From Bacteroidota bacterium (lineage in GTDB: Bacteria > Bacteroidota > Bacteroidia > Chitinophagales > Saprospiraceae), in contig JAKOVW010000035.1 in assembly GCA_029781865.1 (NCBI GenBank), positions 1 through 51,232 of the forward strand: DNA of 51,232 bases. The letters run 5' to 3'. The notes beneath the pieces were generated by a model. The model was not told the origin of the DNA. It did not search any database and was given only the letters and a program-made list of their open reading frames with translations. The position numbers and the translations under genes were made by a program. Positions 2 through 48,439 of this stretch are shown here, piece by piece. Numbering within the stretch: position 1 is the stretch's first letter; each line of letters begins with the position of its first letter.

Positions 2-3000
2 GTAAACACAGGCACAGCAAGTGCAAGCGATAAGTGTACAGATGCGGTGACAAACATCAGTTATGTAGACAGCAGGACGAATGGCAGTTGTAATGATAAT
101 TACACCATCACGAGGACATGGACAGCTGTCGACAGTAACGGCAATGTAAGTATATGTAAACAGACTATAACGGTACAGGATACGATTAAACCTGCAATCA
201 CTTGTCCGGTGGATGTAACAATCAATTGTGATGCGAGCACAAATCCGGGACAAACCGGCACAGCAAGTGCAAGTGATAATTGTACGAATGTAGTAACGAA
301 CATAAGTTATGCAGATTCAAAAGTCAATGGAAGCTGTAAGGATAGTTATATACTGAACAGGACATGGACGGCGACAGATAGTTGTGGTAATTCGAAGACT
401 TGTGTTCAAATAATAGCCGTACAGGATACGAGCAGGCCATCAATTGTCTGTCCGGTAAATGTTACAGTGAACTGTGATGCAGCAAAAGATCCGGGCAATA
501 CAGGCACAGCGAGCGCAAATGATAATTGTACGGATGTAGTAACGAACATCAGTTTTGCAGATACGAGAACGAATGGAAGTTGTAATGATAATTACACGAT
601 CACCAGAGTATGGACTTCAGTGGATAGTTGTGGAAACAGCAATAATTGTCAGCAAATCATAACGGTACAGGATACAACACGACCTGCGATCACCTGTCCG
701 TCGAATGTAACGATAAATTGTGATGCAATGCAGGATCCAGGCAACACAGGTACAGCAACTGCAACTGATAATTGTACGGATGTAGTAACGAATATCAGTT
801 ATAAGGAAACGAAGACCGGAGGAAACGGAAGTTATGTAATCACACGAGTATGGACGGCAGTGGATAGCTGTGGCAATTCAAATAATTGTACACAGGTAAT
901 AACGGTACAGGATACGACGCCACCAATGATTACATGTCCGGTGGATGTGACGATCAATTGTGAAGTGAATACAGATCCTGTAAACACGGGCACAGCAAGT
1001 GCAAGCGATAAGTGTACAGATGCGGTGACAAACATCAGTTATGTAGACAGCAGGACGAATGGCAGTTGTAATGATAATTACACCATCACGAGGACATGGA
1101 CAGTAGTTGATAGTAGCGGAAACTCAAGCACATGTATTCAGACACTTACCATTCAGGATACAACTAAACCATTAATTACCTGCCCGGCAGACGTAACGAT
1201 AAATTGCGATTCTAATACAGATCCTTCGCAAACAGGTACTGCTTCCGCAACAGATAACTGTACAAATGTGATAACCAATATTGGATACACCGATGTAAAA
1301 ACAGAAGGAAGCTGCTACACAATTATCAGAACCTGGACAGTACAAGATAGTTGTGGAAATATCAATAGTTGTGAACAGAAAATTACGGTTCAGGATACAG
1401 TTAAGCCTAATATTAAGTGTCCTGCAGATGCTATTATTGATTGTAATGCAAATAATGCTCCTGTAACTACAGGAATGGCAACAGCAACAGATAATTGTAC
1501 AGCTGTTGTACGAAATATTAGTTATGATGATGTAAAAATAAATGGAACTGGAAATGCTATTTATTCTGTTGAGAGGACCTGGACTGCAATTGATAGTTGT
1601 GGAAATCCAAATAGCTGTAAACAATTGATTACAGTTAAGGATACTACACCTCCAGGAATTTCTTGCCCTGCAGACTTGACTATAAGTTGCGAGGCAAGTA
1701 CCGATCCGACGAATACCGGAGGAGTCTTTGTCACAGATAATTGTACCGATATGGTAACCAATATTGGTTTTGTTGATGTAATAACTAAGGGTATTTGCAA
1801 TTCAGAATATAAAATAACAAGAACCTGGACGGCAAAAGATAGTAGTGGTAATGCAAGCAATTGCATACAGACGATTTCTGTGCAAGACACTACTAAGCCG
1901 ATCATTATCTGCCCTGTAAATCTGACGATTAATTGCGATTCAAATACTGATCCTTCTAATACAGGAATTGCCACTGCAACTGATAATTGTACTGAAGTAG
2001 TTACGGATATTAGTTACAGCGATTCAAAAACAATTGGTAGTTGCTATACTATTAACAGGACTTGGACGGCTGTTGATAGCTGCGGAAATTCTATAAGTTG
2101 TGTTCAAATAATAACAGTACAGGATACGACACGACCTGTTATTAATTGCCCAATAAATAAAACAATTAACTGCGATGATAGTAAGGATCCATTTAATACA
2201 GAATTTGCAACCGCATCGGATAATTGTACGGACATCCTTACGAATATGACTTATGCAGATAGAAAGATTAATGGAAATTGCAATGACAATTATATTTTAG
2301 AACGGGTATGGACGGTAGTAGATAGTTGTGGTAATGCAAATACTTGTAAGCAAAATATCACAGTACAGGATACTACTCCGCCTGTTATCATATGCCCTGT
2401 TAGTTTAACGATTAATTGCGATGCAGGTAATGACCCGGCAAGTACCGGAAAAGCAACTGCTTCAGATAATTGTACAGATGTCGTTACCAATATCAGTTAC
2501 ACAGATAGCAAAACAAATGGCTCAAATGGAGAAAGTTATGTAATCAACCGTACATGGATTGCAGTCGATAGTTGTGGCAATTCAAGTAGATGTGTGCAGA
2601 TTATAGCAATGAAGGATACAACACCTCCGGTAATTAATTGTCCATTGGATTTGACCATTAATTGTGACATAAGTACAGATACATCGGGAACCGGTGTTGC
2701 AGTTGCAACAGATTATTGTACAGATGTTGTTACCAATATTACTTATGTGGATATAAGAGTGAATGGCTACTGTAATAATGCATATTCCATTACTAGAACT
2801 TGGACGGCAATTGACAGTAGTGGAAATGTTAAGACTTGTATCCAAAAGATAACAGTACAGGATACAACCAGGCCTTTGATTAGTTGTCCTCCTAATTTGA
2901 CCATAAACTGCAACATGAATACAGATCCTTCGCAAACGGGTACAGCAACTGCTTCAGACAATTGTTCAGACCTGGTAACTAATATCAAATACAATGATTC

Positions 3001-6000
3001 TAGAACCAATGGTAGTTGTGCTGATAACTATTTAATTACAAGAGTTTGGACGGCAATAGATAGTTGTGGAAATTCCGGTATTTGCAAGCAATTGATCACT
3101 GTACAGGATACAACAAAGCCAACCATCACTTGCCCTGCGGATATTACATTGAATTGTGAGGACGGGGTTAATCCTTCGAAATCTGGTTCAGCAACGGCTA
3201 CAGATAATTGTACAGATGTAATTACAAATATTAGCTATTCTGATAGTAAGACGATTGGAAATTGTATAAGTAATTATTCATTAAGTAGAACCTGGATGGC
3301 AACAGATAGCTGTGGTAACAGTAAAACGTGCGTTCAAAAAATACAGGTACAGGATACGACAAAACCAATAATTATATGTCCTGCAAGTATCTTCATCGAT
3401 TGTATATCTAAGAATGACACTTCAAATACTGGAAGTGCTACAGCAACGGACAATTGTCTTGGCTTGATGAGCAATCTAAGTTTTTCAGATATTCTGGTAA
3501 GGGGCAAATGTGCTGGTGATTTTAAACTTACCCGAACCTGGATGGCAACGGATAGCTGCGGAAATTCAAGTTCTTGCGTGCAAATAATATCCGTTGAAAA
3601 TATTTCGACACCTGAGATAACTTGTCCTGCAGATATTACAGTGAATTGTGATGATGCCGCTTCCCCATTAACTACAGGTAAAGCAACTGCAACGGCCAAA
3701 TGTTCAGGTGTAATTAATACAATCGATTATATTGATGAAAGAAGTGGTACAGGTTGCAGTACTGGTGTTATAATTAATAGAATATGGACAGCGGTTGATT
3801 CTTGCGGTAATACAGCCACTTGTATGCAGCACATTTATCTCATCGATACTGTTAAACCGGTTATCACCTGTCCTAAAAATGTTACGGTGAATTGTCAAAT
3901 ACAAATAACACCTGCAAATACGGGAACTGCAACTGCAATTGATAATTGTTCGGGTGTAGTTACCAATATTAAGTTCACAGATGACCGTACAAATGGAAGT
4001 TGTGTGGATAATTATTCAATTACCAGGACCTGGGAGGCTTATGATTCTTGTGGTAATATGCAGACTTGCATTCAGAAAATTGCCATACAGGACACGACCA
4101 GGCCAAAAGTATTCTGTCCGGAAGATTTAACTCTCAACTGTGATGTGAGTCTGGACCCTGAAAGGACCGGGAAAGCATCTGCAAAAGATAACTGTACTAA
4201 TTTAGTTACAGAGTTTACGTATACTGATGTACGTAAGAATGGAAGTTGTAGCGATAATTTCTCATTAGTTCGTACCTGGGTAGGATATGATAGTTGTGGT
4301 AATAAGAATTCTTGTACACAGTTGATTAAAGTTCAGGATACCTCTAAACCTGAAATATTATGTCCTCCGGATATCTCGATAAGTTGCGAATTAAGTAAAG
4401 ATACGTCTGTGACGGGTGCTGCAACAGCGTCTGATAAGTGTACAGAAGTAATTAAGAACATTACTTATATTGATTTAAGAACAAATGGTAGTTGCAGTAA
4501 TAGTTATTTAATTACACGGACCTGGAGGGCTTCTGATAGTTGTGGAAACGTGAGTACATGCCAACAATCAATAAGTATTGAGGATACAACAAAACCGGTC
4601 GTACTGTGTCCGGTGAATAAAACAATAAACTGTGATGTTGCTGCGGATACAGCAATCACCGGCGTGGCTACTGCAACTGATAACTGCAGTGGTATGATTA
4701 ATGATATCACTTATGTAGATAATAAGACGAGAGGTAGTTGCAATGATAACTATTTTATAGTTAGGACCTGGACCGCTGTTGATTCATGTGGAAACGCAAG
4801 TACGTGTTTGCAAAATATTACGGTTCAGGATACGACAAAACCAATTGTTTATTGTCCTTCAAATATTACTATTAATTGTGATGCAAGTACGGATACTTCA
4901 ATAACAGGAGTAGCTACAGGAATTGATAATTGTACTAACATTGTATTTAATATAGCCTATACTAATGCTAAAATAAACGGAAGCTGCAGGAATAATTATA
5001 CTATTTCAAGGACATGGACGGCAGAAGATTCCTGCGGTAATATTGGTTCTTGTATTCAATTAATTTCGGTCCTGGATACTATTCCTCCGGTTATAACCTG
5101 TCCGGTAGATCTTACAATTAATTGTGATGTAAGCACAGATCCTTCAAGTACAGGTAAAGCGAATGCTTCTGATAATTGCTCCGGTAAAGTATCGAATATC
5201 ATTTATTCAGATGTGAAAACAATTGGTGGTTGCAACGACAACTATACAATTTCAAGGACCTGGACCGCAAAAGACTCATGCGGCAATTCAGGTAGTTGTT
5301 TGCAGACCATTTCAATTCAGAATAATATCAAGCCTACGATGAATTGTCCTCCGGATGTTACCATCAGTTGTCATGGAAATACAGATCCAGCTAGTACAGG
5401 AACTGCTACAGCTGTTGGAGGCTGCAAAAATGTCCCTCTGAAAGTGAAGTTTACTGATGTAAGCACGAATGGAAGTTGTGGTAGAAATTATACGATTACA
5501 AGAACTTGGTTTGCAATTGATTCTTGTGGTAATGTGAATAGTTGTATTCAGACTATTTCAATAAAGGATACCATAAAGCCTTTAATTACCTGTCCACCGA
5601 ATACAACAATTAACTGTCAACAGAATGCAAGTCCATCCTTCCTCGGAATTGCCACCGCATCAGATGATTGTACCAACCAGGTAACTGATATAACATATGC
5701 CGATACCAGAATCAATGGAAGTTGCCCGGATAATTACGCTATAACCAGAAAATGGACAGCAATTGACTCATGTGGTAATGCTAATGCATGTATACAGTCC
5801 ATTACAGTCAGAGATTCCAGCAAACCTGTAATAACATGTCCACCAAATGTGACCATTAACTGTCAGCAAAATTCTACTCCATTTAGTACGGGTACTGCTA
5901 CCGCTACAGATAACTGTACGGATGTAATTACGAATATCACCCATATAGATAATAGAACCAATGGTTCATGCAATGACAACTTTACAATAAACCGGAATTG

Positions 6001-9000
6001 GACCGCTAAAGACTCTTGCGGTAATTCAAACAGCTGTCTGCAGAAAATAACAGTAAGAGACACCAGTAAGCCTTTGATCACTTGTCCGGCAGATATTACA
6101 TTGGATTGTCAATTTATCTCTAGTCCTTCCGGTGCAGGTGTTGCTACTGCTACGGATAATTGTACTGACATTGTCACTAATATCACATTTGCGGACAATA
6201 AAACGAATGTAATTTGTAATAATAATTATTCTGTTACCAGAGTTTGGACTGCAATAGATTCATGTGGAAATGTAAATAACTGTATTCAGAAAATAAAGGT
6301 ACAGGATACCACGAAACCTTTAATTACTTGTCCGGTTGATATTTCAATTGATTGTCAGTCAAATTCATCCCCATTAAATACAGGTAAGGCAACAGCCACT
6401 GATGAATGTACTGATGTTGTAACTAACATTACGAATAAAGATGTAAGAACAAATGGAAGTTGTAGAGATAATTACATAATAACCAGAACATGGACTGCAG
6501 TTGACTCTTGTGGTAATGCGAACAGTTGTATTCAAATAATAACAGTGCAGGATACCAGTAAACCAGTGATTAGCTGTCCGGCAAATGTGGTAATTAATTG
6601 TCAATCGAATTCAGCACCCAATAATACAGGTTTAGCAACGGCTACCGATAATTGTACGGATCAGATAACTAATTTAACATATAATGATGTTAAAATAAAT
6701 GGAAGCTGCAGAGATAATTACATTGTAAACAGAACATGGACTGCTGTTGATTCATGTGACAATGCCAATACCTGTTTACAAACGATAACGGTACAGGATA
6801 CGACGCGGCCTGCGATAACCTGTCCTGTTAACATTACAATAAACTGTGATGCAAACACGAGTCCGTTAAGTATTGGTTTCGCTTCAGCTACAGATAATTG
6901 TACAGATGTTGTAACTAATATTACTTACCAGGATAGTAAGAATGCAGGTTCATGTAAGGATAATTATTCAATTACAAGGACCTGGGTTGCTTCGGATAGT
7001 TGCGGTAATTTGAATAGTTGCAAACAATCAATTACTGTACAGGATACTACGAAGCCGCTTGTAAACTGTCCTGCAAATAGTACCGTGAATTGTCAAAATA
7101 GCTCAGATTTAAATCAAACGGGTATAGCTACGGCTACTGATAATTGTACGGGTGTAGTCACAAATATCAATTATGCTGATACAAGAACCAATGGTAATTG
7201 TCCTTCAAATTACAAGATTACAAGAGTATGGACAGCTATTGATTCCTGCGGTAATGCCAGTAACTGTACACAAACGATATTTGTGCAGGATACAACAAGA
7301 CCGTTAATTAGCTGTCCACCAAACCTTGTGATCAATTGCGATGCCAGTACGGATAAATCAAATACTGGAATTGCAACTGCTACCGATAATTGTTCATCCA
7401 TTTTGGGCATAAGTTTCAGTGATATTAAGGTAAATAATGGTTGCCCTTATAACTCGACAATTACCCGGACATGGAAGGCAGTAGATAGTTGTGGAAATTC
7501 AATAAGCTGTCAACAGACCATCTCAATTATAGATACTGTTAAACCGACAATTACTTGTCCGTTAAACGTCTTTATAAGTTGTGAATCCAGCAAAGACTCT
7601 ACTAAAACGGGTATAGCTATAGCAACAGATAACTGTACCGGCATGGTAACAAACATTTCGTATGTTGATCTAAGAACAGAAGGTAGTTGTAAAAATAATT
7701 ATTCAATTGTACGTACCTGGACGGCAAAAGATAGTTGTGGCAACTCAAGCAGTTGTACGCAATCCATCATTGCACAGGATACAACGAAACCTGTCTTGAC
7801 TTGTCCGGACGACATCATTATTAATTGTGATGCCAATACAGACACTTCTAAAACAGGAATTGCAGTTGCAACCGATAACTGTGCAAGTGTTGTATCCGAT
7901 ATAAGATATAGCGATGTTAAAGTGAATGGATCTTGCAAAAACAGCTCGACAATTACGAGAACCTGGACGGCTACAGATAGCTGTGGAAATGCCGCTAGCT
8001 GTATTCAGAAAATTAGCGTTCAGGATACGACGAAACCTGTTATTACTTGTCCTGTTAATATAACTATTGATTGCGCCGGAAGTGCAGATCCAACAGGCAC
8101 AGGTAAAGCGAAAGCAACCGACAATTGTACAGATTTTGTGACTAATATCGGATTCTCAGATACTCGTATAAATGGATCATGTGCCAACGATTATACAATT
8201 AGCAGGAGATGGACAGCAGCTGATAGTTGTGGTAATTCTACTACTTGTATTCAATTGATAATTGTTCAGGATATTACCAAACCTGCGATTACCTGTCCTG
8301 TTAATATAACCATAAATTGTGATCAGGGTATTGATACTCTGGTTACCGGAAAAGCTAAAGCTTCAGATAAATGCACTGATATTGTAACGGATATCAATTA
8401 TACAGATACAAAAACTTTAGGTAGTTGCCAGAATAATTATTCAATACTCAGGACCTGGATGGCCGTGGATAGCTGTGGTAATTTCAATTCCTGTACTCAG
8501 ACAATTGTGGTGCAAGATGTTACTAAACCAGTCGTCATTTGTCCTGCTGATTTGACTATTGATTGTGATAAAGATGTTACTCCGCCAGTAACTGGAACAG
8601 CGACTGCTAATGATAATTGTACCTCAACAGTGACCAATTTTAACTATGTTGATTCTAAATCAAGTGGTAATTGTATAGGTAATTACACAATAAACAGAAT
8701 CTGGACTGCAACTGACTCTTGCGGTAACAATGCAAATTGTACTCAGGTCATTACAGTACAAGACACAATGAAACCATCCATATCTTGTCCGGCTAATTTA
8801 ACGGTGGATTGTGATGCCAGTACAGATCCTGTATTTACGGGTATTTCAAAAGCAACAGATAACTGTACAGGACTTGTATCAAACATTTATTATTCAGATA
8901 CCAGGTCGAATGGAAATTGCAGAGACAATTATACGATCACCAGGAACTGGTTTGCAATGGATAGTTGTGGTAATGAAAATACCTGTATTCAGATTATCGT

Positions 9001-10236
9001 AGTAAGGGATACTTCAAAACCAACAATAACTTGTCCTGCGGATCTGATTGTGGATAGCGGGGTCATTACCGATCCAATTAAAACTGGTACCGCAACGGCC
9101 ACTGATAACTGTACAGACTTTGTAACCAACATTACTTATTCTGATAAAAAAGTATATGGAAATTGTGAAGACAATTACACATTAAGAAGAACGTGGACAG
9201 CTATAGATTCCTGTGGCAATGCAGCAAGATGTATACAAATCATTACTGTTCAGGATACCATTAAACCAATAATAACCTGTCCATCTGATATTTCTATCAG
9301 CTGTCAGATGAATGCGACCACAAATCTTACAGGAGTGGCAACCGCTACGGATAACAATACAGATGTGGTAACCAATATAACTTATAGTGATTCTCGTGTG
9401 AATGGAGTTTGCAATGACAATTTCAACATATATAGAACCTGGACGGCAGTAGATTCATGTGAAAATGCAATTAGTTGTATACAGATTATTACTGTTCAGG
9501 ACACTACCAGGCCGAAAGTATTTTGCCCGGAAGACGTAACAATTAATTGCGATATAAGCACGGATCCGGCAAAATTAGGTAAAGCAACATCCAATGATAA
9601 TTGTAGTAATGTAGTGACAGATATTACCTATAAGGATAAAAGAACCAATGGCAGCTGTAATGATAATTATACTTTGGTAAGGACGTGGACAGGAACAGAT
9701 AGTTGTGGTAATAGTAACTTCTGTACTCAGAAAATTAAGGTACAGGATACCACAAGGCCCAAAATGGTTTGTCCGCCGAATATTACCATCAGCTGTGATG
9801 CAAGTCTTGATCCGGAGCAAACCGGTAAGGCAACTGCGACCGATAAGTGTACTGATGTCGTTGATAATATTACATATCAAGATGTCAAAAAAGATGGAAC
9901 TTGTAAAAACTCTTATACCATCATCAGGTCGTGGTCGGTTAAAGATAGTTGCGGTAATTCAGGAAGTTGCGTACAAACGATATCAGTTAATGATCTCATA
10001 AAACCAGTTCTGAATTGCCCGGCAGATATTACCATATTCTGTGGCGAAAGTTCGGATACAAGTCTTACAGGAGTGCCTACGGTTTCAGATATTTGTTCTG
10101 ATACTGTTAATGTAGTGTATAATGACTTATTAGTTGCAGGAGGTTGTATTGGAATTTCAGCGATCCATAGGGTATGGCAGGCAACAGATGAATGTGGAAA
10201 TACTAGTAGTTGCACTCAAACTATTCATATCGCCAA
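2..10236 (+). repeat. Coding tandem array of ~246-bp HYR-like units
   Basis: About 41 full units of 80-82 codons follow one another without spacers. At DNA level the first ~1.15 kb is the most homogeneous: bases 1-125 recur at 979-1103 with one mismatch (offset 978 bp, four units). Later units have diverged in codons but keep the protein pattern. Units near 5580-7300 mostly form a subfamily with NCQ or DCQ instead of NCD at the second cysteine. The array will complicate short-read assembly. Confidence 0.95.
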
Positions 10237-13024
10237 ACTCGGAGTTTCAATTATCAAAACCGGTAAGTTTATTGACACCAATAATGATGGTAAAGCAGAT
10301 CCTGGAGAAAAAATTGTGTATACGTTCAAAATTAAAAATACAGGATCTCTGAAGTTGTTGAATTTAGTGGTAACAGACTCAATTCTGAATTTTGTAAGTT
10401 CTCCGATTTCAAGTCTGTCACCGGGCAAAACAGATTCAGTTTCAGTAACTGTAACCTACATCATTACTCAGGCAGATATCGATTTAGGGTATAAAAAGAA
10501 TACAGCTTCAGTGAGTGGAAAGGATGTGAATAATGAAGATGTATACGATGTAGATGATGAAATTACTTACTTGCCACAGAAACCGGCTATAGGTATCGCC
10601 AACAAATTGAAATCTGTAGATGTCCTGGCAGATGGTCTGGTCGATGTACATATGGAAATTACGATGAGAAATAATGGAAATGTAGCTCTTGCGGATTTAC
10701 AAATTACTGATGATATTGCTAAAGAATTTGGAACCTATGTTTCAAATGTACCAGTTACTGCCGGAGAATATACACTTCATGACATTTCTTTTGTAAAAAA
10801 TAGTACGAGTCCTTTACATATTAATCCGGTATTTGATGGTATGTCAAACCAGGAGTTATTGTCTGTGCCGGAGGGTGGTTATTTAAATACAAATGAAGAA
10901 GTCGTCCTAAGTTTATACATCAGATTAATTCCAAATAAGAAAGAATATTACAATCAGCTTGTGGCAACTGGTGATTTGCTATCGCATGATAATCCGGTTG
11001 GACAGATCGACGGAGATCCGGCTGATGCATCCGACTCATCTGATAGTGGTTCCAATGCAACAAATGACCCTGCGCAAGGAGGTGACAATCCCGGAGAACC
11101 AGGTGATTCGGGAACTGTCGATGATCCAACTTTAATCATCATTCCGGGTTCAAAATTATGCGGTAATGTTTGGATGGATCTGAATGAAAATGGATTGCGT
11201 GAAACGGGTGAACCGGGTAAGCCGGGAATTGAAGTCGAATTGTATCGTTGTGATAATGTATTAATGGCTACGGATACAACAGATAGCAATGGACATTATT
11301 TATTTGATATTTCTGAAGTACCGATGGATTATAAGATCATAGTCAAATTGCCGGATTCATTGAAAAACTATGTATTCACTGCACAGGATATAGGACAAAA
11401 TGATCTGATTGACAGCGATGTGGATAAATCTGGTTTGGGATCTTGTGTATATATAGTTCCGGGTCAGATAGATAGTACCTATGATGCAGGATTGATTCAA
11501 TTAGCCAGCATTGGAGACCTGGTATGGCATGATAGAAATGGCGATGGTTTGCAAACTGCCGGGGAAGAAGGAATTGCTGGAGTTGAAGTAATGCTTTATG
11601 AAGCCGCTACAAATGCAGTCGTAGACTCTACAATAACAGATGCCAATGGTTGGTATCAATTTGCTCATCTGATGCCTAATGATTATTACTTGAAATTTAA
11701 AACGACCTCAAGCTGGTTGACGACTAAAGCCAAACAAGGATCTGATTTGATTGACAGTGACGTGGACGATGCAAATGGTCCGGCTACAACTAAAACAATA
11801 CATGTGATTTCCGGATTGCATAGTGGTAGCTGGGATTTAGGTTTGTATAAGTGCGCATTGATCGAAGGAGACACCTGGGTGGATAGAGATATCGATGGAA
11901 TTTATGATGCGAATGAAAGGGGTGTTAACAAGATAAAGATATATGTTATCGATGCAGTCACAAAGAAGGCTATTGATACCATTGTGTCCAGAGTGAAACT
12001 CGGATTGCCTAAGAAGGATGGATACTATATTACGAATTGCCTCAAACCAGGTAAATACTATCTTCAGTTTGAATTGCCATCTTATTTTGGAATGGCAAAA
12101 CCATACAGAGGTGGAAATACGAAGAAGGATTGTGATGTTTCAAATGCAAATGGTCCGAATACAACACGAACATTTAACTTGATGAGTGGTGATGCAATGG
12201 TCAATATTGCCGCAGGTTATCAAATTAAAGCAACAGGAGGTGGATCTGATTTCAATGGAGGAAACGACACAGCAAGGCTGGATGTTAAAGAAGCCAATCC
12301 GGTTTCTTTCGAAAAAGAATTGAAAATAATACCGGTTCGAAACACGGGCGAACCCGATGACGATTGCGTGGATAATAGCTTTGACGAATGCCATGACCCG
12401 GATCATTCTGTGATTGTGATCAATAAGATCTTGCCGGATCTTGATTCTCAACTACTGGATGTTGAATGGATAGCATTTGACGGAACCTACAATGGAAATT
12501 TCGTCGAGCTCAATTGGACTACGGGAATAGAGTGGAATAACGATCATTTTGTCCTGGAAAGAAGATTGGAATCGGAAAGAGAATTTAAAGAAATTGGAAA
12601 GATAGCGGCGCATTTACCCCCGTATTTAAAATTACATGAATACGAATTTGATGACTTCGATGTTTCAAGTTCCGGAATCTATTATTACAGATTGAAACAG
12701 GTGAATAAAAACGGAAAAGTAAATTATACCAAAACCATATCCATTGAAATACGCAATGAAGGTGAAATGAATGTTTCACTTTATCCGAATCCGGTTAGAG
12801 ATATGCTGATGATCAATTTATGGTTGTCAACAGATACGGAAGTAGAATCTATGCTATTGGATCAAACCGGAAATGTAGTTAAATTAAATCCGTTTGGTGG
12901 ATTTATGAGTTCAAAATTGCATGAATTCTATTTGAGAACTTCGGATTTAGCTGCAGGAGTTTATGTGTTGAGCATACGCACAAATGAAGGAATGATATAT
13001 AAGCAATTTGCAGTAATCAAATAG
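2..13024 (+). CDS. Giant T9SS-exported HYR-repeat adhesin-like protein, 5'-truncated by the window
   Basis: The reading frame is open from base 2, so the true start is upstream; the GTG at 47 is not a real start. Visible length is about 4340 residues. In order: a partial and 41 complete ~82-residue HYR-like units (to about base 10236), each with the pattern D-T-x-x-P..CP..NC..DNC..GSC..W..DSCGN..C; two DUF11/DUF7507-like beta domains (about 10237-11130); three SdrD B-like domains with Ca-binding-type DxNxDG/DxDxDG stretches (starting near 11148, 11505 and 11850); an Asp-rich linker; a fibronectin-III-like segment (about 12450-12760); and a C-terminal type A sorting domain with YPNP and a final IYKQFAVIK strand. 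HYR domains are adhesion modules by family knowledge, and the sorting domain implies T9SS export and surface anchoring. Ligand is unknown. It converges on porZ with 154 bp between stops and no clear terminator seen. Confidence 0.93.
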   Translation, partial: VNTGTASASDKCTDAVTNISYVDSRTNGSCNDNYTITRTWTAVDSNGNVSICKQTITVQDTIKPAITCPVDVTINCDASTNPGQTGTASASDNCTNVVTNISYADSKVNGSCKDSYILNRTWTATDSCGNSKTCVQIIAVQDTSRPSIVCPVNVTVNCDAAKDPGNTGTASANDNCTDVVTNISFADTRTNGSCNDNYTITRVWTSVDSCGNSNNCQQIITVQDTTRPAITCPSNVTINCDAMQDPGNTGTATATDNCTDVVTNISYKETKTGGNGSYVITRVWTAVDSCGNSNNCTQVITVQDTTPPMITCPVDVTINCEVNTDPVNTGTASASDKCTDAVTNISYVDSRTNGSCNDNYTITRTWTVVDSSGNSSTCIQTLTIQDTTKPLITCPADVTINCDSNTDPSQTGTASATDNCTNVITNIGYTDVKTEGSCYTIIRTWTVQDSCGNINSCEQKITVQDTVKPNIKCPADAIIDCNANNAPVTTGMATATDNCTAVVRNISYDDVKINGTGNAIYSVERTWTAIDSCGNPNSCKQLITVKDTTPPGISCPADLTISCEASTDPTNTGGVFVTDNCTDMVTNIGFVDVITKGICNSEYKITRTWTAKDSSGNASNCIQTISVQDTTKPIIICPVNLTINCDSNTDPSNTGIATATDNCTEVVTDISYSDSKTIGSCYTINRTWTAVDSCGNSISCVQIITVQDTTRPVINCPINKTINCDDSKDPFNTEFATASDNCTDILTNMTYADRKINGNCNDNYILERVWTVVDSCGNANTCKQNITVQDTTPPVIICPVSLTINCDAGNDPASTGKATASDNCTDVVTNISYTDSKTNGSNGESYVINRTWIAVDSCGNSSRCVQIIAMKDTTPPVINCPLDLTINCDISTDTSGTGVAVATDYCTDVVTNITYVDIRVNGYCNNAYSITRTWTAIDSSGNVKTCIQKITVQDTTRPLISCPPNLTINCNMNTDPSQTGTATASDNCSDLVTNIKYNDSRTNGSCADNYLITRVWTAIDSCGNSGICKQLITVQDTTKPTITCPADITLNCEDGVNPSKSGSATATDNCTDVITNISYSDSKTIGNCISNYSLSRTWMATDSCGNSKTCVQKIQVQDTTKPIIICPASIFIDCISKNDTSNTGSATATDNCLGLMSNLSFSDILVRGKCAGDFKLTRTWMATDSCGNSSSCVQIISVENISTPEITCPADITVNCDDAASPLTTGKATATAKCSGVINTIDYIDERSGTGCSTGVIINRIWTAVDSCGNTATCMQHIYLIDTVKPVITCPKNVTVNCQIQITPANTGTATAIDNCSGVVTNIKFTDDRTNGSCVDNYSITRTWEAYDSCGNMQTCIQKIAIQDTTRPKVFCPEDLTLNCDVSLDPERTGKASAKDNCTNLVTEFTYTDVRKNGSCSDNFSLVRTWVGYDSCGNKNSCTQLIKVQDTSKPEILCPPDISISCELSKDTSVTGAATASDKCTEVIKNITYIDLRTNGSCSNSYLITRTWRASDSCGNVSTCQQSISIEDTTKPVVLCPVNKTINCDVAADTAITGVATATDNCSGMINDITYVDNKTRGSCNDNYFIVRTWTAVDSCGNASTCLQNITVQDTTKPIVYCPSNITINCDASTDTSITGVATGIDNCTNIVFNIAYTNAKINGSCRNNYTISRTWTAEDSCGNIGSCIQLISVLDTIPPVITCPVDLTINCDVSTDPSSTGKANASDNCSGKVSNIIYSDVKTIGGCNDNYTISRTWTAKDSCGNSGSCLQTISIQNNIKPTMNCPPDVTISCHGNTDPASTGTATAVGGCKNVPLKVKFTDVSTNGSCGRNYTITRTWFAIDSCGNVNSCIQTISIKDTIKPLITCPPNTTINCQQNASPSFLGIATASDDCTNQVTDITYADTRINGSCPDNYAITRKWTAIDSCGNANACIQSITVRDSSKPVITCPPNVTINCQQNSTPFSTGTATATDNCTDVITNITHIDNRTNGSCNDNFTINRNWTAKDSCGNSNSCLQKITVRDTSKPLITCPADITLDCQFISSPSGAGVATATDNCTDIVTNITFADNKTNVICNNNYSVTRVWTAIDSCGNVNNCIQKIKVQDTTKPLITCPVDISIDCQSNSSPLNTGKATATDECTDVVTNITNKDVRTNGSCRDNYIITRTWTAVDSCGNANSCIQIITVQDTSKPVISCPANVVINCQSNSAPNNTGLATATDNCTDQITNLTYNDVKINGSCRDNYIVNRTWTAVDSCDNANTCLQTITVQDTTRPAITCPVNITINCDANTSPLSIGFASATDNCTDVVTNITYQDSKNAGSCKDNYSITRTWVASDSCGNLNSCKQSITVQDTTKPLVNCPANSTVNCQNSSDLNQTGIATATDNCTGVVTNINYADTRTNGNCPSNYKITRVWTAIDSCGNASNCTQTIFVQDTTRPLISCPPNLVINCDASTDKSNTGIATATDNCSSILGISFSDIKVNNGCPYNSTITRTWKAVDSCGNSISCQQTISIIDTVKPTITCPLNVFISCESSKDSTKTGIAIATDNCTGMVTNISYVDLRTEGSCKNNYSIVRTWTAKDSCGNSSSCTQSIIAQDTTKPVLTCPDDIIINCDANTDTSKTGIAVATDNCASVVSDIRYSDVKVNGSCKNSSTITRTWTATDSCGNAASCIQKISVQDTTKPVITCPVNITIDCAGSADPTGTGKAKATDNCTDFVTNIGFSDTRINGSCANDYTISRRWTAADSCGNSTTCIQLIIVQDITKPAITCPVNITINCDQGIDTLVTGKAKASDKCTDIVTDINYTDTKTLGSCQNNYSILRTWMAVDSCGNFNSCTQTIVVQDVTKPVVICPADLTIDCDKDVTPPVTGTATANDNCTSTVTNFNYVDSKSSGNCIGNYTINRIWTATDSCGNNANCTQVITVQDTMKPSISCPANLTVDCDASTDPVFTGISKATDNCTGLVSNIYYSDTRSNGNCRDNYTITRNWFAMDSCGNENTCIQIIVVRDTSKPTITCPADLIVDSGVITDPIKTGTATATDNCTDFVTNITYSDKKVYGNCEDNYTLRRTWTAIDSCGNAARCIQIITVQDTIKPIITCPSDISISCQMNATTNLTGVATATDNNTDVVTNITYSDSRVNGVCNDNFNIYRTWTAVDSCENAISCIQIITVQDTTRPKVFCPEDVTINCDISTDPAKLGKATSNDNCSNVVTDITYKDKRTNGSCNDNYTLVRTWTGTDSCGNSNFCTQKIKVQDTTRPKMVCPPNITISCDASLDPEQTGKATATDKCTDVVDNITYQDVKKDGTCKNSYTIIRSWSVKDSCGNSGSCVQTISVNDLIKPVLNCPADITIFCGESSDTSLTGVPTVSDICSDTVNVVYNDLLVAGGCIGISAIHRVWQATDECGNTSSCTQTIHIAKLGVSIIKTGKFIDTNNDGKADPGEKIVYTFKIKNTGSLKLLNLVVTDSILNFVSSPISSLSPGKTDSVSVTVTYIITQADIDLGYKKNTASVSGKDVNNEDVYDVDDEITYLPQKPAIGIANKLKSVDVLADGLVDVHMEITMRNNGNVALADLQITDDIAKEFGTYVSNVPVTAGEYTLHDISFVKNSTSPLHINPVFDGMSNQELLSVPEGGYLNTNEEVVLSLYIRLIPNKKEYYNQLVATGDLLSHDNPVGQIDGDPADASDSSDSGSNATNDPAQGGDNPGEPGDSGTVDDPTLIIIPGSKLCGNVWMDLNENGLRETGEPGKPGIEVELYRCDNVLMATDTTDSNGHYLFDISEVPMDYKIIVKLPDSLKNYVFTAQDIGQNDLIDSDVDKSGLGSCVYIVPGQIDSTYDAGLIQLASIGDLVWHDRNGDGLQTAGEEGIAGVEVMLYEAATNAVVDSTITDANGWYQFAHLMPNDYYLKFKTTSSWLTTKAKQGSDLIDSDVDDANGPATTKTIHVISGLHSGSWDLGLYKCALIEGDTWVDRDIDGIYDANERGVNKIKIYVIDAVTKKAIDTIVSRVKLGLPKKDGYYITNCLKPGKYYLQFELPSYFGMAKPYRGGNTKKDCDVSNANGPNTTRTFNLMSGDAMVNIAAGYQIKATGGGSDFNGGNDTARLDVKEANPVSFEKELKIIPVRNTGEPDDDCVDNSFDECHDPDHSVIVINKILPDLDSQLLDVEWIAFDGTYNGNFVELNWTTGIEWNNDHFVLERRLESEREFKEIGKIAAHLPPYLKLHEYEFDDFDVSSSGIYYYRLKQVNKNGKVNYTKTISIEIRNEGEMNVSLYPNPVRDMLMINLWLSTDTEVESMLLDQTGNVVKLNPFGGFMSSKLHEFYLRTSDLAAGVYVLSIRTNEGMIYKQFAVIK

Positions 13025-13178: not shown

Positions 13179-15491
13179 TTATCTGGTAATCACAATTTTG
13201 GTCACAATAGCATCTGCATTTTCGAAATCCTGCGTGGTGTTTGCAAATACGAGATACACTCCTGAGCTCGCTTTTCTGCCCAGATAATCTTTGCCATCCC
13301 ATATAGCTTGTCCGCCATTTGCAATGGTTTCAAAAACAAGTCGCCCGCTTAAATCTGTTATCTTAACCCGTGCATCTCTTGCCAGGCCTTTGATAGCGAT
13401 AGGGCCTTCGTAATCAGAGGTTACCGGATTCGGAAATACTAAAGGGTTTTCTGTAAAATGATCCCTGGCAAGCGTGGCATTTGTTCTGTACACCTGTAAT
13501 CCTTTGGCAGTAGCTATCCATGCATCTCCTGTTTTGGGATCCATGGCAATATCTAAAATATTATTATCTAAAAGCGGACTATTAGAAGTATTAAAATTAT
13601 AAATCTGCAATTCACCACCGGGCGATTGTACATAAATTCCATTATTACTTGTGCCAAACCATTTTCTATTTGCCCCATCTACTGCTATGCTAGTAATGAT
13701 TTCCGAAGAAAGTAAATAATAAATAATGCCATCCTGATCAACTTTTCTTCGGCTTCCCTTACAAATATTGCCTGGATCAAAAATGGAGGAACCACATTCA
13801 AAAACAACAGGGCCCTCAGCAGTGCCTACCCAAACATCGCCGTCAAGATCGACTTCGACTGTGCGAACATCATTGGTAGTCATTTCTGTATTGCTGGTGT
13901 TTAACATCACCACACGGTCATCTGCCGGATTGTTCGGATCCCCTTCATCAAATACATAAACACCATTATTCAATCTGTTCACCATCCATTTATAACCATT
14001 CTGATCGACCTTTACTTCTGTAAACAGGTTTTTGGGAAATCCGTGTCTCTTCCATTCCCCTTTATTATTGAATGAAGTAAGCCCGGAACTTCCTGAGGCA
14101 AGATAATTGGTTATCCAAAGCGTGTTATTTTTATCGAATGCCAATCCGGACAAGCGGATATGATTTGAATCACCGTCAATTCCTTCAAGTAAAGAATTGC
14201 TTTTATTGTAAAGTGTGTAAACCTTATTTTTTCGATTGTATTCCAGTAATCCTTTACCGGCACTTGCAAAATAAATTTTGGATTTATCCGGACTTTCAGC
14301 AATCCTAAGAATATCAGTCAAATTATAAGAGGACAATTCTGGAACAGTGAATGAATTGATCGTAGTCCATGTATAATCAGCATACTTCAGAATTCCATCT
14401 GATTTATAATCCGGCGCAAAGATGGTGTTTACACCGCCTGTAGCTACATAGATTCCATCTTGCAATGCGGCAATTTCAAAGCAACTATTGGTTAGAGGTC
14501 CCGGGACCCATATACTATTGCATGCATCACCGGCTTTATTGGAATACCGGAAACTCCATCGGGTATCCGCATACCATATTGTTCCGTCTTCAGATTCGAT
14601 TGCAAACAAGTTTTGCTGCGTACAATCCGGATTGCAATAACCCACATTTAAATTTTCGTCTATAAAACCTACCAGATCTCCGCAATTGGTTTTGCAGTGT
14701 AAACCGGTTAATAAATAATTAGTACCATCAGATAAGTAACTGATCTCAAAACCGGGCTTTGTGAAAATGGATTGGAATTTTTGATTCTTCCATTGAAATA
14801 ATTCATTGTCATTTGAAACATATACCTTGCCTTTAAATGTAACACTTGAATGATAGGCTACATCGGGAGGAATGCCGTCTGCCTGGTTTAGCTTTCTCCA
14901 GCTATTAAAATTCTGTATGATTTCAGATCCTGTTGTTTGCAGAAAGTAAATACCCGATTCGGTTGCCATGAAATATTGATTATTAACTTCAATACAATCA
15001 TATACTTTCAGATTCGGAGTGAATAAGGTAAAAATGAATCGTCCGGAATTTACATCCAGTAAGGATAAGCCATAGTTGGCACTGATGAACACGTGATTTT
15101 CATCTTGTCGCGAGATTTTATTGATGGTTTTATCAATTGGTATGTTATTGAAATTGACTATGTCGACAACCGGATGCACGCCATCTTCTTTTAGTAAATC
15201 AAGCGCTGCGTTATCATACGCAATAAGCAATGTAGATTGATCTGTATGGTAAAAAATTGTTCTGATTTTAGAATCACTTAATCCTTCCGTTCTGGTGATG
15301 CGTTCATAACTTAAATCGCTTTTATTGATTTTCAGAATGGCAAAACCAGTAGAGTAGTAAACAAATTTTTTGCTTTGGGTGATATAAGTTGCATTGTTAA
15401 AAGGAAGGTGAGTTGCCCATTTATCAATAGCGATATCAGATTGTGCATTGATGGTAAGTGAAAGAAGGAGAAGGGGTAGGAAACGAATCAT
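13179..15491 (-). CDS. porZ: PorZ-type T9SS component (beta-propeller protein with CTD)
   Basis: In Porphyromonas gingivalis PorZ is a surface component of the T9SS attachment complex that handles anionic LPS with sortase PorU. This protein (~770 aa) has the expected plan: a signal peptide (MIRFLPLLLLSLTINAQ), two WD/ligand-sensor-like beta-propellers with repeated 'G(L/I)xxLD', 'DGxIWYAD' and 'DLDGDVWVGTAEG' blade motifs, and a C-terminal Ig-like domain with VFPNPV and a closing TKIVITR strand. The N-terminal block (W..LPFNNATYI...GLSDSKIRTIFYH...LLIAYDNAALDLL) is characteristic of PorZ proteins as I know them. The start at 15491 is chosen over the longer ORF (15533) because it places the signal peptide at the N-terminus. 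An intrinsic terminator lies just upstream on the same strand (15567-15596), so the gene either has its own promoter after it or is attenuated. Alternative: a generic two-component-regulator-propeller T9SS cargo. Confidence 0.78.
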   Translation of the reverse strand: MIRFLPLLLLSLTINAQSDIAIDKWATHLPFNNATYITQSKKFVYYSTGFAILKINKSDLSYERITRTEGLSDSKIRTIFYHTDQSTLLIAYDNAALDLLKEDGVHPVVDIVNFNNIPIDKTINKISRQDENHVFISANYGLSLLDVNSGRFIFTLFTPNLKVYDCIEVNNQYFMATESGIYFLQTTGSEIIQNFNSWRKLNQADGIPPDVAYHSSVTFKGKVYVSNDNELFQWKNQKFQSIFTKPGFEISYLSDGTNYLLTGLHCKTNCGDLVGFIDENLNVGYCNPDCTQQNLFAIESEDGTIWYADTRWSFRYSNKAGDACNSIWVPGPLTNSCFEIAALQDGIYVATGGVNTIFAPDYKSDGILKYADYTWTTINSFTVPELSSYNLTDILRIAESPDKSKIYFASAGKGLLEYNRKNKVYTLYNKSNSLLEGIDGDSNHIRLSGLAFDKNNTLWITNYLASGSSGLTSFNNKGEWKRHGFPKNLFTEVKVDQNGYKWMVNRLNNGVYVFDEGDPNNPADDRVVMLNTSNTEMTTNDVRTVEVDLDGDVWVGTAEGPVVFECGSSIFDPGNICKGSRRKVDQDGIIYYLLSSEIITSIAVDGANRKWFGTSNNGIYVQSPGGELQIYNFNTSNSPLLDNNILDIAMDPKTGDAWIATAKGLQVYRTNATLARDHFTENPLVFPNPVTSDYEGPIAIKGLARDARVKITDLSGRLVFETIANGGQAIWDGKDYLGRKASSGVYLVFANTTQDFENADAIVTKIVITR

Positions 15492-15566
15492 GTGTAAGTA
15501 ATGAATTAACCCATTAAACGATATAAAGCTCAAATTATTCTCAAAGAAAATGCTTGCAAATGGACA

Positions 15567-38673: not shown

Positions 38674-41600
38674 TTAATGATTTACCATAAATCGTTTGAT
38701 GAGTTGTTCACCTGTGTTGTTGTACAACAGAATGGTATAAATACCATTGGGCCATTCGCCAACTGAAAAACTGAATGCATTTCCCTTTTTGCGTTCAACG
38801 CTGCGTTGTACCATTTTGCCATGGTGATCATAAATTTCATAATCTCCCAATTCATCTTTTGGGCTGACTACATTTACTTCATTCGAAGAAGGATTGGGAA
38901 ACAAATCAACTTCAAAAGGTGATTTTTCTTTTTGTCTTGCATTCTGAATAAGAATGGTGTTGATTTCACCAACTGATTTTTCATTTTCAACGCAGTTGGC
39001 CGCGCAATGAAGTTGTACAGAATTAAAATGAACAGGCTTGATTTCATTTTCCGGAAGATTGGCCGTTGCGCCGTTCATTAAAATGCAGTAGTCTTCTACT
39101 TCACCGAATAACGGAGAGCTGCATGGACTGACAGGATAACCGGAATAAGACATAATAACTCTCATGCGGGTTTGTTTGGATGGCAGGAATTGAGGCATCG
39201 TCAGATTAGCACACATGGTTGTGGTGCCAAATCCATAAACGACTTCTTCCGTAACCGGATCAAAAAATCCATCCGCATTAAAATCAATCCATATTTTCCA
39301 ATATACTTTATATGTCGTACTGAGGAACCCCGGAGTTACGCAGATCGGATAGGTTTTATTGGGAAGTATAGTGCCGCAGGCTTTATTGAAATAATGATAA
39401 CCGCCATTGTCACCGGTGATCGTATCTATTCCTGCAAATTCAACTCTGTTGATGAACATGTATTTACTGTCAAGACCTTTTGCCTTGCAATAAATACTTT
39501 CTTTATCACAATCAACTGTAATGTTGAAACTACAAGTATCAGATTTGCCATCCTTTTGCGCGACATAGGTGATTTTGTTTTTGCCGCATGGCAGTAATTC
39601 ACCCTGAGGAGTACCTCCGGTTTGTGTCAGATCATAACAGGTTATCTCACAAATGTATTCCCGGAGCAGATTTCCATTCTGATCATTCCACGTTCCATCA
39701 GGTAATAACTCTATATAATCATCTAATCCATCACCATTATTCGGTTGACCGGGTGACCAGCTGGTAAATGAAAACGGACTGTTGTCGATCCATTCGAAGT
39801 GCCCTTCCGTCCGTTCATCCGTACCACCAACCCAGGCTGTAAGACCCATTAATTTGGATGCAAGGAATTTATTTTCTTTAAGTGAATTGATAACTGCAAG
39901 TTTACCTCCTAATTGTTCGCAGATAAATTTGGCAGTACCCCATTTGGCAGGACCTGTTGAACAAAAATAACTATGACCATCCAAATCACCCATGTAAATG
40001 AAACCAGGCAAGCTGGTCTTACAACTTGTGCAATGTTTCACCTGTGGTGTATTCCAATCTACAAATACCCCATTTACAAATGGATCCAGTCGAATTACTG
40101 TAGTATCATCCGGGCAGTTGATTCCAATTTCAGTACCGCTTACATTAATATGAAAACTATCTGTGGTTACTAAACCACAAAGGTCAACGGCAGTATAGAT
40201 TATTGTGCTGACACCTGCAGGGAAACGAGCTCCTGATTTAAAATTGGACGTGAAACTACTGATACCGCAATTATCAAATGCTTCTGGTTTGTTCCAGAAC
40301 ATTGGTACATCGCAAGCACCTTTTGCATTGACCGTTAAATCAGTAGGCATATTTCTGATTTGTGGAGGTGCCGTGTCTTTGATGTCTATGAGTTGTTTGC
40401 ATTCAGCACGTAATGTGCTTATATTAGGATCAACGGCAATCCATTTACGAATCAATTTAATGGCACCGGGACATGGGCCATTGCTAATAATACTGTCCGT
40501 ATAACTAATCACCGGAGCCAGGCAGGTTGGTTTGCCTGGATCTGCAGTTGCTGTACCCGTTATTGCAGGATTGATTCCAGGTCCCGGACAAGATGTATAA
40601 TCTGCAGGACAATGAATAACCGGATTTTGATCACAACAATTGTCAGTTACTGTAATAAAAAACCAACAAGTAGATGTGTTGCCACAATTATCACTTGCTG
40701 TAAACACTACTCTGGTTACGCCCTTTGTAAATGTTTCACCCGATTGATGAGTGGCAAGAATATTTTTCAAACCACAGTTGTCATTTGCAACCGGGAAGTC
40801 CCAGTTGACTACTACATTACAATTGTATTGCGGATCTACCGTGACATCATGCGGACAAGATGCGAATACAGGGGAATCTACATCTTCCAAAATAATGGTT
40901 TGAATACAGGTAGAGCTTGCATTACTTTTTGGATTTACAGCTTTCCATATTCTGTTTATCACGGTTCTGCATGGATCTGCAGATACTGTGCTATCTGAAA
41001 AAGTAAGGAACGGTTGTACACAAATTGGTTTTAGCGGATCAACTGTAGCTTTACCTGTAACGAAAATGTCGGTGCTGCTTCCGGGACATCCGTGATAATC
41101 AGCCGGACATTCAATAACAGGAGCACCGTTACAACAATTTTCTGTTACTGTTACAAAGAATTGACACGCAGATTGATTGCCGCATGCATCAGTTGCAATT
41201 ACAAATACGGGGGAAGTACCAATCTGGAAACGGAAACCGGATGGCTTTGAAGTAAATATAGTTGTAGCACCACAATTATCTGTTGCTTCCGGTTGATTCC
41301 AGTTAACACTGGCGGTACAATCATCATCAGATTGTACGGTTATATCCGGAGGACAGAAGGTGATTACAGGTGCTGTTTCATCTTTTAAATATAATTTTTG
41401 TACACAAGTTGATTTCAAATTTAAATTAGAAGGATCTGTTGCAGTCCAGGTTCTGTTTACCTCGAGGTAGCAATTTATATATTTTACTGGTACATCATTG
41501 TAGGTGATAACTGGTTGAGAACAATGCGGATCTCCTGGCAATGCGGTAGCGGTTCCGGTTGTTGATGGTTCCAGATCTGAAGAAGGACAGCCTGTGAAAT

Positions 41601-47800: not shown

Positions 47801-48439
47801 GGATCCCATCACATTAATGTTAAAGCTGCAGCTGCTTTTGTTGCCGCATGGATCTTCAGCGGAGTAGGTCACGGTTGTAATGCCAATCGGAAAAATATCA
47901 CCGGAGACATGATTGACGGATAAATTCAGTTTTCCGCAGTTGTCGGATACATTAGGTGAATTCCAGAATACCGTGGCATTGCAATTGCTGTTGGCCATGA
48001 CATTGGTGTCTTTGGGACAATTGCTGATGATTGGTGCCTCATCATCTTTTAATATTATTTTTTGCAGACAAGAGGTATTGAGTGTTGGGTCCTGAGGATC
48101 TGTTGCTGTCCATACCCGATTGATTTCAATACTTCCGGCGCAGGGTCCCTGGCTGATAATATTATCGATATGTGTAATAATTGGGGGACTGCAATTCGGA
48201 CCGCCGGGCTGACCTGTTGCGAATCCTGTATTGCCGGGAGCAGTAGATACTCCGGGACAAGCAGCAAAATCCGCCGGGCATTTTATTATTGGCGGTACAT
48301 TGCAAACAGAAAATTTGGTTGCTGATTTGGTGTGCAGCTTCTTGTAAGATTTAGGTTGACTAAATCCGTTGTGTAAGCTAATCAGTAAAAGAAAAGCAAT
48401 CATCCATAGCGGACGAGCTTGAATTGAAATTTTGTCCAT
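44831..48439 (-). CDS. T9SS-exported HYR/C-type-lectin/GEVED surface protein (1202 aa)
   Basis: Same architecture as the neighbouring 1694-residue protein but with four composite HYR units instead of seven (about residues 45-710). The signal peptide is MDKISIQARPLWMIAFLLL...GFSQ. A HYR starting IKCPNDIIVDKD is again split by a C-type lectin domain (about 765-878) with GQPNN and TWND, resuming at FPCGTTKVSYVV...CSFFVTVKC. A GEVED domain (about 946-1061, ends YGEVEDYC) and a sorting domain (VYPNPAYEKINL...RRNAKFELMK) complete it. Likely a surface lectin or adhesin. The head-to-tail arrangement with its paralogue and the shared flanking repeats suggest tandem duplication followed by change in unit number. 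Confidence 0.9.
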   Translation of the reverse strand: MDKISIQARPLWMIAFLLLISLHNGFSQPKSYKKLHTKSATKFSVCNVPPIIKCPADFAACPGVSTAPGNTGFATGQPGGPNCSPPIITHIDNIISQGPCAGSIEINRVWTATDPQDPTLNTSCLQKIILKDDEAPIISNCPKDTNVMANSNCNATVFWNSPNVSDNCGKLNLSVNHVSGDIFPIGITTVTYSAEDPCGNKSSCSFNINVMGSCCDMPPVLFCPADYSGCPNDGIDPSKTGYPTASPGSPLCNVPVFRYHDSIVSQGNCAGSISLIRTWTALDPIDTTKKSSCTQRINLKDDVAPSLSLCPVDITVSPGANCMTRVNWNLPKVTDNCSGTTLTSNVQPNTFFNVGTTTINYIATDQCGNTATCTFTITVSECCNVNPKLTCPTSYVGCPGTSVDSSVTGTPLVEPGTPNCSQPLLSIQDIVAKTGPCPGATRILRVWTAKDPIDSKIQSACVQVIDLKDTIAPEFISAPFDIHIPIDSNCMATASWQEPVAKDNCSTVQLNSTHASGTAFPLGTTVVMYTATDLCGNATTLSFKVVVTGSCCNKPPVIICPKDYSGCPQADCKPTTSGIATATPSSSGCDTPLITFKDEVIKTYSCLNAKKIKRTWTATDPHDTSLYSVCTQIIDLNDTTPPVFTNCPSDITIDANGACEKELWWNVPTATDNCGIKQITSNYKPGYLFPAGTTTVVVYTAMDNCGNITNHSFKVTVTGNGLNIKCPNDIIVDKDPNLNGAIVNWAHPTVTTCKPCSSDTIAGFIYMGNYLGNKYFCSLKTATWPNAKVLCENVGGQLCVMQSPDENAFVASKLMGVTAYIGLHDSNVEGFFEWIDGTPLSFTNWSAGQPNNSNGDQDYVELLPDGTWNDQYTTSLREYICKVPCYTVTQISGPPCGALFPCGTTKVSYVVKQGNYTDTCSFFVTVKCNGGPGYCNSKGADCSPMWIQCVELANVNNCSGPNGGYKYFNNPCIEVITGNTYNLCLTPGFSGSSYQVYWKVWIDFNGDGDFDDAGELFAYGNGYSKICGYVTIPGCSGKTTRMRVSMSYGCYPPNSCSTFPYGEVEDYCIVISNNLSGGGNTALIIKKNLATLLGAENYSGSIITTEDAGIPDDSNDKWKNEFTELIVYPNPAYEKINLGLKSGNIQKIRVFDLHGKQVYFETTNHKNAIASIDTKNWKEGMYFVQIEDEFGIRRNAKFELMK

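Follow-up and report, generated by a model that had tools for sequence, protein, structure and literature searches.

The array gene and its cysteine losses

The window analysed here is a stretch of 51,232 nucleotides from a Saprospiraceae genome (Bacteroidota; GCA_029781865.1, 4.5 Mb in 93 contigs), which is the start of contig C67 (JAKOVW010000035.1), with base 1 of the window being base 1 of the contig. It begins with a plus-strand reading frame, 2–13024, that is open at its left end and encodes a tandem array of repeat units of the HYR_4C type. By profile search and alignment the array covers positions 2–10240 and contains 42 units, one partial at the contig end and 41 complete, with a typical unit length of 82 residues. 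Pfam family PF23237 (HYR_4C) scores 92.7 bits in the region 686–3000, against a cut-off of 27, and 50.2 bits in the region 9005–12000, and the rest of the array is matched by the profile search. The hyalin repeat family, PF02494 (HYR), reaches 18.8 bits in the region 686–3000 and stays below its cut-off of 21.7. The array is followed on the same strand by three further Pfam domains, a DUF7507 domain (10280–10546), an SdrD_B-like domain (the better of two stretches, 11504–11845) and a Por_Secre_tail, the sorting domain of type IX secretion (12779–13012). The latter scores 38.9 bits (cut-off 27), and 32 bits with TIGR04183 (cut-off 23), and is a type A tail. As this tail is located at the C-terminus, the array protein is predicted to leave the cell by type IX secretion, and the array is the putative stalk of an exported surface protein.

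A unit normally has six cysteines, here named C1 to C6. Cysteine is found in 41 of the 42 aligned rows at C1, in 40 at C2, 41 at C3, 39 at C4, 38 at C5 and 42 at C6, where the partial unit 1 stops short of the C1 and C2 columns. Nine cysteines are missing from the array, and eight of these form four pairs in neighbouring units, either C4 of unit n with C5 of unit n+1, written C4(n)/C5(n+1), or C2(n)/C3(n+1). C4 and C5 are absent from units 4 and 5 respectively (674–1159; unit 4 674–913, unit 5 914–1159), from units 7 and 8 (1397–1888; 1397–1642 and 1643–1888) and from units 11 and 12 (2372–2863; 2372–2617 and 2618–2863), whereas C2 of unit 38 and C3 of unit 39 are absent at 9011–9502 (9011–9256 and 9257–9502), all on the plus strand. 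The partial unit 1 also lacks C5. The full set C2–C5 is present in 32 of the 41 complete units, and the nine losses are located in the remainder and in unit 1. The original prediction, made by eye, had listed the same losses, with four complementary pairs running in the same direction and six cysteines in all other units, and every entry of it agrees with the alignment columns. Ordinary replacement codons are found where cysteines are lost, GGA, GGA and AAT at C4, AAC, AGC, AGT and AGT at C5, AGC at C2 and AAT at C3, and a two-residue gap adjoins the C4 position in unit 4.

If C2(n) is paired with C3(n+1) and C4(n) with C5(n+1), there is no partnerless cysteine at any of the 40 readable interfaces (units 2/3 to 41/42), while either alternative pairing leaves two at four of them. 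When the C5 losses were permuted among the interfaces of the window, a single shuffle out of 5000 gave three matches; the C2/C3 match arose in 127 of 5000.

Predicted structure of the units

Units 27–29 (6308–7045, plus strand) were modelled together by AlphaFold2 with a pLDDT of 93.9 and a pTM of 0.74, and a single unit with 84.6 and 0.72 respectively. In these models the unit is all-beta save one helix of four residues, and the strands (residues 5–7, 12–15, 29–31, 38–49, 56–66 and 71–81) are identical in the single-unit model and in the first unit of the triple. C4 (residue 52) is located in the loop joining the strands of 12 and 11 residues and C5 (residue 68) in the following loop, and since these loops are successive, each of the two cysteines lies at a different end of the domain. 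C3 (residue 34) is found just ahead of a strand that starts at the same end as C5, and C2 (residue 16) after the first strands; in the model C3 and C5 would thus share one pole and C2 and C4 the opposite one. Foldseek matched cadherins, an RTX extender tetra-tandemer and other stalks, with low whole-model TM-scores of 0.26–0.49 in the 50 matches shown, and a Big_3 domain was listed first for one unit. Together, the models and the Foldseek matches point to a tandem beta-sandwich fold. No significant relative was found by sequence in the PDB, where one match was at chance level (E 0.13) and the three-unit query gave nothing at E 10.

Survey of junctions in homologous arrays

The window and 106 other loci, among them one of just 20 bases, supplied arrays with a total of 1458 units. 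Three profile iterations spread into neighbouring sequence (84, 100 and 109 columns), and only the first was used. Units of 70–100 residues that covered 68 of the 78 columns and were not at a frame end were kept, that is 1271 of the 1458, among which 605 have the pattern -2345- (a dash marks a missing cysteine) and 374 the pattern 123456. The filtered set contains 1002 junctions in 110 reading frames from 98 sources.

Joint loss of C4(n) and C5(n+1) is seen at 62 of these junctions, loss of C4 alone at none and of C5 alone at three, and 937 keep both (phi 0.98). This is the co-loss for which the original prediction had proposed to test homologous arrays. For C2(n)/C3(n+1) the corresponding numbers are 3 both lost, 4 with C2 only, 2 with C3 only and 993 kept (phi 0.50). 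C1 and C6 of the same unit behave in a similar way, with 568 joint losses, 4 and 16 single losses and 414 kept (phi 0.96). The same-unit pairs C2/C4 and C3/C5 show no association (phi 0.03 and -0.04), and weaker associations are seen for C4/C5 within a unit (phi 0.38) and for the reverse pair C5(n)/C4(n+1) (phi 0.48). All four junction cysteines are retained at 934 of the 1002 junctions. Permutation within arrays gave a mean of 36.9 joint C4/C5 losses, and none of 5000 shuffles reached the observed 62. The matched junctions are spread over 18 frames and 14 sources with many differing replacements, and where both units are of the W type (Trp at model column 63 or 64) there are 15 matched and no single losses among 535 junctions in 4 frames. 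Interfaces with a partnerless cysteine number 6 of the 1002 under inter-unit pairing, 67 under intra-unit pairing and 64 under crossed pairing. In array L109, from the same genus as the window, the run 123-56, 123--6, 1234-6 is found, in which a unit without C4 and C5 has a left neighbour without C4 and a right neighbour without C5, as expected if the two cysteines serve different junctions.

Unmatched single losses, which the original prediction did not expect among homologues, do occur, yet they are rare, being found at 6 of the 1002 junctions (three junctions are counted twice in the single-loss numbers above). Five of the six involve another HYR subtype with a DNC...FxC pattern, as read by eye, and all three losses of C5 only follow units of this subtype. 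In the raw count of 1167 junctions with relaxed columns C4(n) is lost at 71, and C5(n+1) is lost at all 71; with strict columns nine junctions lack C4 and retain C2, C3 and C5. The raw numbers for C2(n)/C3(n+1) are 7 both lost, 38 with C2 alone lost and 5 with C3 alone. On reading, most raw single losses turned out to come from units that are misaligned, cut off by a contig end or interrupted by large insertions. Arrays L103, L104, L071, L098 and L100 have large insertions between C3 and C4 in some units, which are split in profile searches, and the second halves of such units begin with GLGANN or GANN.

Joint losses of C2 and C3 only were present at six junctions in six frames before filtering. 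Two of these pass the filter, one in the window and one in L088 from another genome, where C2 of one unit and the DNC cysteine (C3) of the next are lost, the same event as between units 38 and 39, and the other four fall outside the length or coverage limits. The third filtered co-loss of C2 and C3 is a junction in L067 at which all four cysteines are lost.

Coupling analysis

The 1002 neighbour pairs, with an effective number of 696, were also examined by mean-field direct coupling analysis, in which 11,486 column pairs were ranked. C1–C6 takes ranks 1 and 2, C4(n)–C5(n+1) rank 3 and C2(n)–C3(n+1) rank 10, the latter two being first and second among all inter-unit pairs. Without the genome of the window (897 pairs) they are found at ranks 5 and 13, and in W-type units alone at ranks 3 and 7. 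When only junctions with C4 and C5 kept in both units are considered, C2(n)–C3(n+1) leads the inter-unit pairs, and C4(n)–C5(n+1) drops to rank 128 because this subset keeps C4 and C5. The cysteine ranks reuse the losses counted in the survey and are not independent of them, but the strand-pair signals are. Among the top 80 pairs hairpins are seen as constant sums i+j of 140 (8 pairs), 109 (6 pairs) and 74 (2 pairs only), with apices at C5 (70), C4 (54) and C3 (37), in agreement with the AlphaFold strands.

Array ends

Of 122 first units, 18 have lost C3 and 52 have lost C5, compared with 5 and 55 of 949 internal units. The 124 last units include 21 without C2 and 49 without C4, where the internal numbers are 5 and 57 of 949. 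In L074 and L080 the first visible unit lacks C3 and the last lacks C4. Some end units with a full outer pair adjoin HYR-like domains that were missed by the profile. In L078 and L079, and similarly in L081 and L082, the last unit has C2 and C4 and is followed by a sorting-type domain, presumably of type B, with a cysteine at its start; behind the arrays of L078 and L079 this domain has a further cysteine after GI-D/E, and the pairing may continue into it.

Pairing of the cysteines

The interpretation that we consider highly probable as a full explanation is that C1 and C6 form a disulfide within the unit, and that C2(n) with C3(n+1) and C4(n) with C5(n+1) form two disulfides across each junction. 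Each unit would be an Ig-like beta-sandwich with C1–C6 as its one internal bond, with the BC turn (C3) and the FG hairpin (C5) at the upper pole and the AB turn (C2) and the CF hairpin (C4) at the lower pole. Bonds from C2(n) to C3(n+1) and from C4(n) to C5(n+1) would then staple neighbouring domains on two sides and prevent them from swinging or twisting freely. Loss of one partner would entail loss of the other, as a lone exposed cysteine would be harmful or useless, and this is proposed to account both for the paired losses and for the more frequent losses at array ends. On the sequence evidence the C4(n)–C5(n+1) disulfide is very likely, and the C2(n)–C3(n+1) disulfide, for which topology, coupling and a few losses can be cited, is likely. 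From the losses, the coupling and the pole topology of the model we infer that the coupled cysteines are bonded and that a stiff rod results. The original prediction had read the window losses as inter-domain disulfides, and co-loss, coupling ranks, pole topology and, for the most part, array ends support that reading.

Several observations weigh against stapled junctions. The unit filter was chosen after the raw exceptions had been read, and C5(n+1) is lost with C4(n) kept at 40 raw junctions, compared with 3 after filtering. The reverse pair C5(n)/C4(n+1) is also in excess, 47 against 40.9 expected (59 of 5000 shuffles), although alternating arrays would yield such an excess. Losses of C2 and C3 are scarce, with 3 matched and 6 unmatched ones in the filtered set and 7 and 43 in the raw count, and without the window their permutation test does not reach significance (1107 of 5000). 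Related arrays cannot be taken as independent of each other. At the array ends the poles for which no loss is predicted are also raised, more weakly, with C2 lost in 6 of 122 first units (p 5.5e-4) and C5 and C3 in 19 and 4 of 124 last units (p 4.3e-4 and 0.013); C4 is lost in 9 of 122 first units. Among first units 53 of 122, and among last units 60 of 124, retain the full outer pair. In the window the last unit, 42 (9995–10240, plus strand), keeps all six cysteines, and C2 and C4 have no visible partner, the next cysteine being 308 residues further on, as the original prediction had cautioned. A search for the four families DsbA, DsbB, VKOR and Thioredoxin_4 gave no match in the genome of the window, in which exported arrays rich in cysteine are numerous; among 14 control genomes they were matched in 8, 6, 3 and 9 respectively, and VKOR was matched in 4 of 61 genomes of the family.

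Pairing within the unit, C2 with C4 and C3 with C5, with an inter-unit bond formed only where each pair has lost one member, is geometrically possible as the members of each pair share a pole in the model, and it would account for the C2 and C4 kept in unit 42. This closeness within the unit was raised in the original prediction as a contrary outcome, and the topology alone permits such bonds, but the losses of these pairs are not associated (see the phi values above), their coupling ranks are 395/156 and 10712/514 compared with 10 and 3 for the inter-unit pairs, partnerless cysteines would remain at 67 rather than 6 interfaces, and no losses at array ends are predicted. We regard it as improbable. 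Even less probability is given to metal binding by the coupled cysteines, for example one Cys4 zinc site per junction instead of two disulfides. Model topology and coupling do bring all four cysteines to one junction, but a Cys4 site should couple all four, and the cross pairs C2(n)/C5(n+1) and C4(n)/C3(n+1) are found at ranks 72 and 289, compared with 10 and 3 for the proposed partners. Furthermore, one pair can be lost alone, C4/C5 with C2 and C3 kept at 65 unfiltered junctions and C2/C3 with C4 and C5 kept at 6, and the array protein carries an export tail, disulfides being the usual state of cysteines outside the cytoplasm. Of the alternatives considered this is the one that we find hardest to credit.

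The matching would be uninformative on bonds if one ancestral defective pair of units had been copied along the array, a caveat already raised in the original prediction. The units without C5 (1, 5, 8 and 12) are indeed separated from the others by a single branch (94/87; present in 98% of bootstrap trees), and units 1 and 5 share 89% DNA identity over 192 bases. In contrast, the units without C4 (4, 7 and 11) do not group (three changes, 0% of bootstrap trees) and their replacement residues differ, which suggests repeated compensating loss, although the tree is weakly resolved. The start DTTPP, pointed out earlier for units 5, 8 and 12, is indeed present there, but it is not exclusive to them since unit 11 also begins with DTTPP. 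Outside the window the matching recurs in different frames and sources with different replacements, and also in W-type units taken alone, but some of these are old shared events; many matched junctions in which a classical HYR unit without C4 precedes a unit without C5, as in L095 and in two other genes of the window, may go back to few such events. As an explanation of the matching as a whole, copying is in our view very improbable.

An aspartate pair across the junction

The inter-unit pair ranked third in the coupling consists of two aspartates, one at the end of unit n and one in the DNC motif of unit n+1; in W-type units it is the eighth. The two are lost jointly 65 times, from 85 and 82 losses, compared with 42.6 when permuted within arrays, and none of 5000 shuffles reached the observed number. 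A control pair made up of these residues in a single unit shows a weaker association (p 7e-20 compared with 5e-57). In the window the losses match in both cases (7 of 5000 shuffles): the last residue of unit 15 is Asn for Asp and the DNC Asp of unit 16 is Ala (3356–3847), and the last residue of unit 22 is Asn for Asp and the DNC Asp of unit 23 is Gly (5078–5569), all on the plus strand. By analogy to the linkers of cadherins and RTX proteins this suggests a bound cation, possibly Ca2+. A wider proposal combines two cystines with a metal site at each junction, the latter made up of the terminal Asp of unit n together with the DNC Asp and the CGN Asn of unit n+1. The array would then be a covalent rod dependent on both redox state and calcium, of at least 42 domains (more than 50 if contig C60, described below, is the front half of the gene), made without a recognisable DsbA, DsbB or VKOR and with the same logic in HYR stalks across Bacteroidota. 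This proposal as a whole is tentative, and we think it somewhat more likely to fail than to hold.

Neighbouring genes and contig C60

The array gene is adjoined by a PorZ-like beta-propeller gene on the minus strand (13179–15533), belonging to a family of type IX secretion components. Two more minus-strand genes, at 38674–43758 and 44831–48439, encode HYR arrays in which a C1-C2-C3-C4-C6 unit alternates with a classical HYR unit, together with a C-type lectin domain, a GEVED domain and a type IX secretion tail; PF02494 is above its cut-off in both. These are likely to be adhesins with a stalk and a lectin that share the junction logic. Contig C60 (L042, first 6 kb on the minus strand) has an N-terminal region and behind it 11 units that run off the contig end; ten of the 11 are closely alike, and the first lacks C3. 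This contig may hold the front half of the gene in the window, but its matches to bases 1–200 of the window are internal and not terminal.

Comparison with known systems

The four cysteines of HYR_4C are taken to be C2–C5, and the array differs from this family by the addition of C1 and C6. Neither the name HYR_4C nor a pairing of its four cysteines was found in the open literature searched. The units of the PF02494 type in the two neighbouring HYR genes have a C2-like cysteine and C3, lack C4 where examined, and show the same matched junction losses, whereas the scanned stretch of the array stays under the cut-off of this family. Sel1-like repeats are alpha-helical, and the units of the array, all-beta in the model, are not of this kind. 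In HcpB and HcpC of Helicobacter, which consist of Sel1-like repeats, regular disulfides tie successive repeats (PMC3851747), with one bond per junction in a super-helical fold, as compared with two proposed bonds per junction between beta-sandwiches here. Cadherins and RTX extenders are tandem beta-sandwich stalks like the array, and in the array a junction Asp pair is coupled. In the former Ca2+ in the linkers gives the stalk rigidity (PMC7493085), and this source names proline-rich linkers and helical assembly as further solutions to stalk stiffness; its main text does not contain the word disulfide, while in the array the stiffening would be due to cystines. Searches of the titles and abstract openings of a largely open-access literature listed no paper on disulfides between the domains of HYR arrays. 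The domain family is thus known, but the design with an inter-repeat cystine ladder is absent from the literature and solved relatives searched.

Long adhesin stalks need stiffness, and a double cystine at each junction would, if true, be another solution. It would also give a disulfide assignment for a Pfam family that is named after its four cysteines and for which sequence searches gave no significant solved relative. If a chain has some hundred bonds, as inferred here, the question arises of how they are formed without a match to the four usual oxidase families. Matched losses of cysteines among tandem repeats also offer a way of deducing disulfide pairing from sequence. The unit profile was matched in 84 of 100 sampled genomes of the family to which the window belongs (E 1e-12) and in 34 of 395 genomes of the phylum (E 1e-8), and stiffening by double cystines would, if the pairing is true, be common.

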